The position numbers and the translations under genes were made by a program. The notes below the pieces were generated by a model. It was not told the origin of the DNA and made no database searches. It worked only from the letters and a program-made list of their open reading frames with translations. Of a stretch of 46,601 nt of DNA, positions 36,120 to 38,585 are shown in pieces (within the stretch, counting starts at the first letter, position 1; each line of letters starts with the position of its first letter). The stretch is taken from positions 1 through 46,601 of the forward strand of contig JAGAEN010000014.1 of NCBI GenBank assembly GCA_017613135.1, in the 5' to 3' direction. The DNA comes from Candidatus Saccharimonadota bacterium (GTDB taxonomy: Bacteria; Patescibacteriota; Saccharimonadia; Saccharimonadales; Saccharimonadaceae).

Positions 36120-37154
36120 ATGATTTGGAATGAGCTAAAAACACCATTTTTGATTTTGGCGCCCATGGAAGGAGTCACTGATATCGCCTTTCGCCAAGTA
36201 ATTGCGCATGCTGGTCGTCCGGATCTCTTTTTTACGGAGTTTACCAATGTCTCGTCTTACGCCTCTGAAAAAGGCCGCCATAATGCTTTAGAGAGGCTTG
36301 CAATTGCCCCCACCGATTCACCTATTATCGCTCAAATTTGGGGTAAAAACCCAGAACATTTTGCCACTTGCGCCGCTGCATTAGAAGATCTCGGTTTTTC
36401 TGGTGTTGATCTCAATTTTGGCTGTCCAGATAAAAATGTCAACCGGGCCGGCGGTGGCGCCGCTATGATTAAGACCCCTGAGCTCGCTATCGAATGTTAC
36501 CGTAACGCTAAGGCCCACACCAACCTTCCAGTCTCTATCAAAACCCGTCTCGGCTGGGCCAAACCCGAAGAATATACTGAATGGCTCTCAACCTTACTCG
36601 ACGAACACCCAGCAGCCCTCACCGTCCACCTCCGCACCAAAAAAGAAATGAGCAAAGTCCCTGCCCACTACGAGCTCATCCCTGACATTGTTAGACTTCG
36701 CGACCAAATTAGTCCCGAAACCAAACTCATCATCAACGGCGACATCAAAAATAAAGCCCACGCTCTGGAACTTCATAGACAGTATCCTGAAATCGATGGC
36801 TTTATGATCGGCCGCGGCGTCTTCCAAAATCCATACTGTTTCACCGACCATACCCCCACCCAAGAAGAACTAATGGAGTTATTGAAATACCACTTGGATT
36901 TGTATGAACAGTACGCAAATAATGCTTTGAGGAGCATAATCGCCGACGGGGCGATTACGGAGCGACCGAAGCCCGTGACGACGGGCCTGAGGGAGCGTTC
37001 CGAAAAGCATTATTTGCGTACTGCCCCATACGAACCTTTGAAACATTATTTCAAAATCTACATCAACAATTTTCCCGGAGCCTCGGACCTTCGCGCCAAA
37101 CTAATGGAAACTCATAGCGTAGAAGAGGCTAGAAAGGTACTTTTGATAGCATAA
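36120..37154 (+). CDS. dus: tRNA-dihydrouridine synthase with in-frame insertion
   Basis: A FMN enzyme that reduces uridines in tRNA. Visible motifs are APMEGVTDIAFRQVI at the N-terminus, NFGCPDKNVNRAGGG with the catalytic cysteine, SIKTRLGW, and IDGFMIGRG near the phosphate-binding loop. I start it at the ATG at 36120 rather than a GTG at 36114, because that GTG abuts the -10 and would lie upstream of the transcript. Residues about 264-301 (NNALRSIIADGA through YLRTA) do not belong to the family and are encoded by a palindromic element (36909-37023). Length is 344 residues; without the insertion it would be about 306. Specific subtype (DusA/B/C) is not assigned. Confidence 0.92.
   Translation: MIWNELKTPFLILAPMEGVTDIAFRQVIAHAGRPDLFFTEFTNVSSYASEKGRHNALERLAIAPTDSPIIAQIWGKNPEHFATCAAALEDLGFSGVDLNFGCPDKNVNRAGGGAAMIKTPELAIECYRNAKAHTNLPVSIKTRLGWAKPEEYTEWLSTLLDEHPAALTVHLRTKKEMSKVPAHYELIPDIVRLRDQISPETKLIINGDIKNKAHALELHRQYPEIDGFMIGRGVFQNPYCFTDHTPTQEELMELLKYHLDLYEQYANNALRSIIADGAITERPKPVTTGLRERSEKHYLRTAPYEPLKHYFKIYINNFPGASDLRAKLMETHSVEEARKVLLIA
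36909..37023 (+). mobile_element. Palindromic element inserted in frame in dus (RPE/MITE-like)
   Basis: Perfect 20-bp terminal inverted repeats, CAGTACGCAAATAATGCTTT (36909-36928) and its complement (37004-37023), enclose 75 bp that are much GC-richer than the gene around them. Two internal arms fold from it: TAATCGCC/GGCGATTA (36937-36957), and CGGAGCG paired with CGTTCCG (one GU pair) with GCCCGT/ACGGGC inside (36971-36986). The whole would form a three-way junction as RNA. No stop codon is introduced. Confidence 0.7.
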
Positions 37155-37320
37155 TGAGATTTAGACCAGATTTGTTTGCGTAAAAATTACAACTCAACAA
37201 TGAAAAAATCTCCCATAGCGAGTTTACGAGCGAATAAGGAGATTTTTTCTTGACTTGTGTTGTAATTTTTACAGGCAAACAAGTCCTAGCTATCAAAAGT
37301 ACCTTTCTAGCTTCTATGCT
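37117..37320 (+). repeat. 204-bp inverted repeat between dus and murD
   Basis: Outer arms 37117-37150 and 37289-37320 match over about 32 bases with one substitution and one 3-base gap. Middle arms contain TTGTTTGC and TAAAAATTACAAC (37172-37193 with 37259-37282). The inner arm is AAAAAATCTCC/GGAGATTTTTT (37203-37213 with 37238-37248). The left outer arm includes the last 11 codons and stop of dus; the right outer arm touches the murD -10. Confidence 0.85.
37203..37248 (+). terminator. Probable terminator of dus
   Basis: AAAAAATCTCC/GGAGATTTTTT stem at the centre of the larger inverted repeat, with a run of six T on the plus strand. The 24-base loop is long for a terminator, but the longer flanking stems may help. 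Confidence 0.5.
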
Positions 37321-37331: not shown

Positions 37332-38585
37332 ATGAAAATCGCATTATTAGGTTACGGCAAAGAGGGTAAAGCCGTCAAAAAATATTTTAAAGACCATTTT
37401 GAAAACATAAAAATCGACATTTTCGAGAACTTCACCTTTGAAGAAATTTCCAAGAAGGATTATTCATCCTATGATATATTATTCCGCAGCCCTTCCGTCC
37501 CACCACTACATCTAAAAAACGAATCCAGCGTCACCAAATATTTCTTCGACCACTGCCCTTGCCCCATCATCGGCGTCACCGCCACCAAAGGCAAAGGTAC
37601 CACTTGCTCGTTTATTAAATCACTGCTTGACGCCCACCACGAAGACGCTTATCTCGTCGGTAACATCGGCGAGCCGGCTATCGATATCTTAGACCAGCTA
37701 AAACCAAACTCGGTGGTCGTTTATGAAATGTCCAGTTTCCAACTTTGGGACCTCGGAAAATCCCCCCATATTGCCATTATTGGTCACTTGGAACCAGATC
37801 ATCTTAATGTTCATAAAGATTACCGAGACTATTTGAACGCCAAGAAAAACATTTGTCTTCACCAGACCAAAGAAGATTATTGTATTTATTATAAAGATAA
37901 TCTTGAAACCCTAGAGCTCGTCCGCGACTCTAAAGCCAAAAAAATCGGCTACCCGTACCATATTCCAGACGAAATTAGAAATGTCATACTTCTCCCTGGC
38001 GAGCACAATGTAAATAACGCTATCGCCGCCATCACAGCCGTAGCCTGTCTCAAAAATATCTCACCAGCCGAATATTTAAGAGATTATAAAACTGAGATTA
38101 TTCAAGGCCTTGAAAACTTCCACGGCCTGCCTCACCGCCTAGAATTCCTCCGCGAATTAAATAATGTCAAATATTACGACGATAATTTTGCCACCAACCC
38201 TTCTTCGACTAAAGTCGCCGTCGACGCCTTCCCAGACGATAATCTCGTTCTAATTCTCGGTGGTCGCGATAAGACTAATTACGAAGACCTCCCCGAAATT
38301 AGAGACATCTTAAAAGCCCCACAAATCAAGCGCGTAATTTTAATCGGTGAATCCGGCCACGAACTCGCTAAAAAATTCCCTGACCCTCGCTACCGCCTAG
38401 CCAACACTCTTTCTGCCGCCGTCTTCGCCGCTCGTCTCGAAGCCGAGGCCATCACCAGTGATACCACCAACAAAGACCAAAACACCATCATCATTATGTC
38501 CCCCGCCGCCGCTTCGTTCGATATGTTTGAAAACGTCTATGACCGTGGCGCTCAGTTTAAAAATTTAATCTCGTCTCTAAATTAG
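37332..38585 (+). CDS. murD: UDP-N-acetylmuramoylalanine-D-glutamate ligase
   Basis: A 417-residue Mur ligase. The ATP loop GVTATKGKGTTCSF, the substrate segment GNIGEPAIDIL, YEMSSFQLWDL and IIGHLEPDHLNVHKDYRDYLNAKKNI match MurD; the C-terminal domain has HRLEFLRELNNVKYYDDNFATNPSST and LILGGRDKTNYEDLP. It adds D-glutamate to UDP-MurNAc-L-Ala in peptidoglycan synthesis, so this organism makes at least part of its own wall precursor. It stands alone rather than in a dcw cluster and its 3' end overlaps the convergent M16 gene by 29 bases. Confidence 0.92.
   Translation: MKIALLGYGKEGKAVKKYFKDHFENIKIDIFENFTFEEISKKDYSSYDILFRSPSVPPLHLKNESSVTKYFFDHCPCPIIGVTATKGKGTTCSFIKSLLDAHHEDAYLVGNIGEPAIDILDQLKPNSVVVYEMSSFQLWDLGKSPHIAIIGHLEPDHLNVHKDYRDYLNAKKNICLHQTKEDYCIYYKDNLETLELVRDSKAKKIGYPYHIPDEIRNVILLPGEHNVNNAIAAITAVACLKNISPAEYLRDYKTEIIQGLENFHGLPHRLEFLRELNNVKYYDDNFATNPSSTKVAVDAFPDDNLVLILGGRDKTNYEDLPEIRDILKAPQIKRVILIGESGHELAKKFPDPRYRLANTLSAAVFAARLEAEAITSDTTNKDQNTIIIMSPAAASFDMFENVYDRGAQFKNLISSLN

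Follow-up and report, generated by a model that had tools for sequence, protein, structure and literature searches.

Rickettsia palindromic elements (RPEs) carry one conserved peptide per element (PMC10969869), and their arms are reported to lose identity with time (PMC6649704, citing Claverie and Ogata 2003). Template switching has been proposed for the coding palindromes of nematomorph mitochondria (PMC6649704), and in yeast, template switching between inverted repeats homogenises the arms and inverts the spacers (PMC8604942). Intragenic REPs are on record in O. terrae and Thauera (PMC3733652). Because such intragenic repeats had thus already been reported outside Rickettsia, coding palindromes as such are not new.

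The window, that is the whole analysed stretch of 46,601 nucleotides, contains a palindrome inside dus. We think it probable that this palindrome is a non-autonomous selfish repeat that is translated within genes and whose arms are host-derived and kept matched by template switching. The gene and the palindrome are laid out as follows.

36120..37154, + strand: dus (tRNA-dihydrouridine synthase), the host gene (ORF; Pfam PF01207, E 1.7e-51)
36909..37023, + strand: palindromic element, the entire three-way-junction palindrome (fold z -12; covariance model match E 3.6e-35)
36909..36928, + strand: left arm, a copy-specific outer stem whose inner ~6 nt are conserved in the family
36931..37001, + strand: conserved core, 71 nt, common to the dispersed copies (BLAST matches to 17-99 of the query; core comparison)
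36937..36957, + strand: internal hairpin P2 (TAATCGCC/GGCGATTA), with compensatory changes among copies
36962..36996, + strand: internal hairpin P3
36972..36985, + strand: CCCGTGACGACGGG hairpin, common to the subfamilies compared, whose TGA/TAA closes the sole never-used frame
37004..37023, + strand: right arm, the exact reverse complement of the left arm

The sequence-only reading of this stretch had proposed a 115-bp block with perfect 20-bp arms and two internal arms; its coordinates proved exact, and 20 of 20 arm base pairs are complementary. Two GA dinucleotides flank the 71-nt core. As RNA, the palindrome is predicted to fold into a three-way junction with two internal hairpins, in line with the strong junction that had been suggested. 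Its MFE is -67.3 kcal/mol, whereas shuffled versions average -31.0 (z -12.1) and none of 200 reaches so low a value.

That reading had left the existence of other copies to genome searches, and these revealed copies dispersed in the same genome and in relatives. BLAST with the 115-bp block found ten more core copies in the window's own genome at E <1e-5, and a covariance model built on ten copies, in which 27 of 43 pairs show compensatory change, matched this genome 22-23 times, with 22 copies at E <1e-7. What recurs is the core of ~71-75 nt plus ~6 bp, not the whole 115 bp, and the ends of the family have no sharp definition. In a 60-genome sample, all 36 members of the genus contained matches, and the 24 genomes representing other genera of the order contained none; across the phylum (n=380, nine candidates scored per genome) strong matches were confined to the same genus, and other groups gave a few weak ones. 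The assemblies are all drafts, most of them from metagenomes. The named relatives with copies belong to Candidatus Saccharibacteria, Ca. Nanosyncoccus among them, and come mostly from ruminant guts. Judged by these sequence matches, the element is clade-specific, and its own genome is that of a Candidatus Saccharibacteria member of the ruminant-gut clade.

Related sequence was absent from the phage, plasmid and viral collections searched, and with zero matches there, carriage by phage or plasmid was rejected. Rfam returned no family at gathering score and two weak, chance-like matches. The Y1 (HUH) transposase (PF01797) is missing from 39 of 40 genus genomes, including this one, and identity with REP/RAYT systems was dismissed for that reason. 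Among the other inserts read, a longer palindromic family occurs in tsaD and tatD (L146, L162 and L186; protein ...SSAGLE...TSY.G...SN...MLQK...), with fold energies down to about -119 kcal/mol. In the tsaD insert of L151 the core is AT-rich and the family sequence is gone, yet the whole palindrome is still paired, and the truB copy (L008, 1500-1680) has an apparent second hairpin nested within the element.

Hosts in the window's genome include dus, argS (two copies), tsaD, valS, ileS (two copies), miaA, truB, tatD, der and a P-type ATPase; these names come from sequence, with a profile search for dus only. We counted a copy as coding when an ORF of 120 codons or more extends across it; this holds for 86 of the 102 distinct copies with usable flanks, in both orientations and in five frames. 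By source, the coding fraction was 17/19 in the own genome, 26/38 among model matches elsewhere and 43/45 in genes chosen in advance; the last group supplies 43 of the 86, and copies that are orthologous do not count as independent observations. With the shared hairpin as reference, 39 copies are read in frame +1, 23 in +0, 15 in -2, 5 in -0, 4 in -1 and none in +2. The +2 frame is closed by TGA/TAA in CCGTGACG/CCGTAACG, is stop-free in 4% of copies and is used by 0 of the 86. Excision from the mRNA or bypassing by ribosomes would make stops and frame irrelevant, so avoidance of the stop-containing frame makes translation the simplest reading: the element is most likely translated, rather than spliced out or bypassed. 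The same count indirectly weighs against a spliced intron or a translational bypassing element. The use of five frames and both strands also corrects the picture of a single encoded peptide. Since five unrelated peptides arise from the same DNA, it is the DNA, not the peptide, that spreads. The likeness to RPEs first noted at dus is thus borne out by dispersed copies, in-frame insertion in many unrelated housekeeping genes and empty orthologous sites. Neither of the outcomes that would have refuted it appeared, be it close homologues with this protein segment but no palindromy at the nucleotide level, or a lone copy combined with an ancestral alignment across the region.

At the boundary of thrS and miaA, one element (L006, 1480-1600) covers the thrS end and the probable miaA start codon, and may supply the miaA N-terminus.

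The reading frame of dus is open across the entire palindrome, as had been proposed. The Pfam Dus domain spans residues 11-249, and the insert sits in the linker to the C-terminal helices. In an alignment of 24 Dus proteins of relatives, 20 lack the segment, with gaps of ~28-38 columns after residue ~265, and three have a related segment. The ~38 residues first ascribed to the insertion are right for the palindrome itself and too many as a net gain, which is ~30-35 over empty relatives because an empty loop already contains 5-11 residues and because outer stem and host sequence overlap. The inserted residues were also modelled, as had been proposed: in an AlphaFold2 model built from the Dus alignment, residues 269-299 have pLDDT <50 between confident helices, and they are predicted to be disordered. 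The residues SEK in this dus were dropped as a candidate for host sequence, since SEK is the translation of the element's own conserved inner arm; the HYL that follows may be of host origin.

In dus, argS, tsaD and tatD, one and the same loop houses different inserts in different species. On a dus tree computed with the insert removed, ~15 changes between filled and empty are needed and well-supported branches force at least 5, where 'filled' is set by length and takes in L092 and L262, which are not palindromes of this kind. A single ancestral dus insertion was therefore rejected in its simple form. The dus genes of L071 and L244, which are 94% identical, have unrelated inserts in the same place; next to the insert the identity falls, which suggests its import by recombination. 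The closest filled/empty dus pairs are ~80% identical, so that the exact ancestral base at the insertion points is unreadable.

Short inverted repeats of at least 7 bp occur at 11 of 75 empty dus sites versus 11 of 675 control windows (Mann-Whitney p 1e-5). In one case, the empty L079 carries GAATATGAGAA/TTCTCATATTC, 11-bp arms identical to the outer arms of the filled L191. These repeats are most simply scars of core deletion; alternatively, they may be pre-existing palindromic targets. We also observed cores inverted in place at the dus site: the L237 core and the reversed L071 core are identical at 79 of 81 positions, and the core of L206 is likewise that of its sister L072 turned around.

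Sequence conservation in the family drops ~6 bp outside the core, and the stem beyond is copy-specific. In the window's genome, the second-site argS copy and the tsaD copy have identical 71-nt cores (0 differences) with unrelated arms, and recent duplication including the arms was rejected on this ground. The second-site argS copy and its G003 orthologue differ at 9 core positions, whereas their arms are clearly orthologous; a diverged core between orthologous arms points to core exchange between copies of one genome, and cores appear to be exchanged in this way.

The arms change together. Among argS orthologues from four species, 8 outer-helix pairs changed on both sides, a score reached by 0 of 500 shuffles. 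Among the dus copies, both partners changed in 13 pairs and a single partner in 1. Shuffles and slid controls fell short of the observed scores for argS and dus alike. This rarity of one-sided changes at dus argues for arm-to-arm copying and against stepwise compensation. The 5' arm repeatedly shows a 1-nt bulge close to where the conserved stem gives way to the copy-specific one (L018-L061 and others), in intergenic copies too; it could be a recognition feature.

Directly downstream of dus lies a second palindrome, followed by another gene.

37124..37315, + strand: second, unrelated palindromic element (fold z -14.4; inverted repeat)
37124..37150, + strand: its left arm, the 3' end of the dus coding sequence (host)
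37151..37288, + strand: its core, multicopy in the genus
37289..37315, - strand: its right arm, an inverted, non-coding copy of the dus 3' end (27 nt, 96%; 23 nt exact)
37332..38585, + strand: murD-like ORF, the downstream gene (ORF, named from sequence)

The second element shares its architecture with the dus palindrome, a repeated core between copy-specific arms, whereas the two cores are unrelated. Other copies of its core have their own arms of 20-30 bp. Among the copies read, this core (TAATGAGATTTAGACC...) is mostly intergenic, and in L333 and L336 TAATGAGATTTAGACC occurs twice, on either side of the left arm, as if a recombination or insertion site had been duplicated. In the tatD gene of L189, a 22-bp stem begins in conserved host codons for HPDEAD, which are common to L188 and largely to L185; the reverse complement of these codons forms the other arm. 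On the nucleotide evidence, copying of an arm from the host is clear in two cases, the second element at the dus 3' end and L189 tatD; for the remaining copies, we infer that the arms have a host origin as well. Host origin is clear in so few cases because most genes vary in the arm as well as in the host loop. A tentative extension, possible and somewhat doubtful, is that we are dealing with a new mobile repeat whose insertion copies the host flank in inverted form by snap-back synthesis, with several unrelated cores of this clade, genic and intergenic, sharing this mechanism.

In the explanation that we favour, the conserved core of a short, non-autonomous selfish repeat would spread to new places. 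Within genes, it would survive only with a length that is a multiple of three, in a stop-free frame and in a tolerant loop, and would there become a translated, disordered insert. The frame statistics, the empty sites and the structure model support this outcome, of which translation itself is the part that we infer. The outer stem would consist of host sequence and its inverted copy, rather than being a fixed part of the repeat, and DNA template switching between the arms during replication would keep them complementary. Template switching would also explain the core inversions and the concerted change of the arms, and loss by deletion could leave short palindromic scars at some empty sites. 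The in-place inversions and scar-like palindromes fit DNA template switching better than RNA selection. The 1-nt bulge on the 5' arm is unaccounted for by simple homogenisation and counts against this explanation.

Among the alternatives, the one that survives best, unlikely as we judge it to be, is that the folded single strand moves, recognised by its structure like an integron attC site, with the arms made once by snap-back copying at insertion. The conserved 1-nt bulge would then be a recognition feature, and its recurrence on one arm, intergenic copies included, fits such a role. So do the fall of conservation near the core/arm boundary, the presence of an unrelated intergenic element with the same architecture and copy-specific arms of 20-30 bp, and the two arms copied from the host, that of the dus 3' end and that of L189 tatD. 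However, orthologous arms keep changing together after insertion, for which one event is insufficient, and no recombinase is linked to the elements, the Y1 transposases being absent from nearly all genus genomes as noted above.

It is improbable that the palindrome is kept by selection for mRNA structure, be it for regulation, processing, splicing or ribosome bypassing. In favour of it, the fold is very stable, covariation is strong and the core contains a conserved G-U pair. Yet both orientations occur, so that no one RNA is made, and cores invert in place. In a strict count, which is small and noisy with local arm alignments that are partly poor, single arm mismatches on the mRNA strand comprise 25 G.U and 25 A.C; a looser count anchored at the junction gives 71 G.U to 54 A.C. 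The lack of a G.U excess in the strict count gives no sign of selection on the mRNA fold. Moreover, the stop-containing frame is never used, though removal from the mRNA would not require that, and Rfam holds no family that matches at gathering score.

The idea that the inserted peptide is selected because it serves a function in Dus and the other host proteins, which inserts at the same dus, argS, tatD and tsaD loops in several relatives might suggest, can be given almost no weight, since the same DNA encodes five unrelated peptides, the insert residues are predicted to be disordered and most relatives lack the insert.

The selfish repeat matched by template switching, as favoured here, would extend translated selfish palindromes, best known from Rickettsia, across a group of the tiny-genome Patescibacteria, where the affected genes include the essential argS, valS, ileS and tsaD, and also dus. 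It also brings together two puzzles: the survival of such repeats within proteins and the continued matching of palindrome arms. The richer genomes each give ~20 model matches and the species are many, which opens arm copying, core inversion and loss to comparative tests. A further consequence is that numerous annotated proteins of Saccharibacteria have loops that probably represent selfish insertions. In the literature searched, which covered few subscription papers, neither such elements in Saccharibacteria or Patescibacteria nor the combination of a translated selfish repeat with copy-specific, co-changing arms turned up.

Several known systems share part of this behaviour. Like MITEs, the repeat is small and non-autonomous with inverted terminal repeats; MITE terminal repeats are common to the copies, whereas here the arms differ between copies with identical cores. 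REP/BIME repeats with RAYT transposases and CGTC/GTAG-tagged palindromes are likewise short and sometimes intragenic (PMC3733652), whereas the cores described here are longer and genus-specific. Template switching as described in yeast (PMC8604942) predicts arms that change in concert and spacers that invert in place, and we observe both; the yeast cases are ordinary short inverted repeats, in contrast to the mobile repeat of Saccharibacteria. The coding palindromes of Nematomorpha mitochondria come close in their coding arms, which are kept identical, in their gain and loss and in the template switching proposed for them; no shared mobile core is reported for them, whereas here a conserved core is dispersed genome-wide (PMC6649704). 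Another close counterpart is the RPE, and the comparison is supported: the dus element works like one, a likeness of behaviour and layout that does not by itself imply family membership. Both are palindromic multicopy repeats of 100-150 nt, found in frame in housekeeping genes and in intergenic positions. The Saccharibacteria element resides in another phylum and uses both orientations and five frames instead of one peptide. Moreover, unlike RPE arms, which reportedly lose identity with time (PMC6649704), its arms are copy-specific, stay complementary and change together in orthologues.
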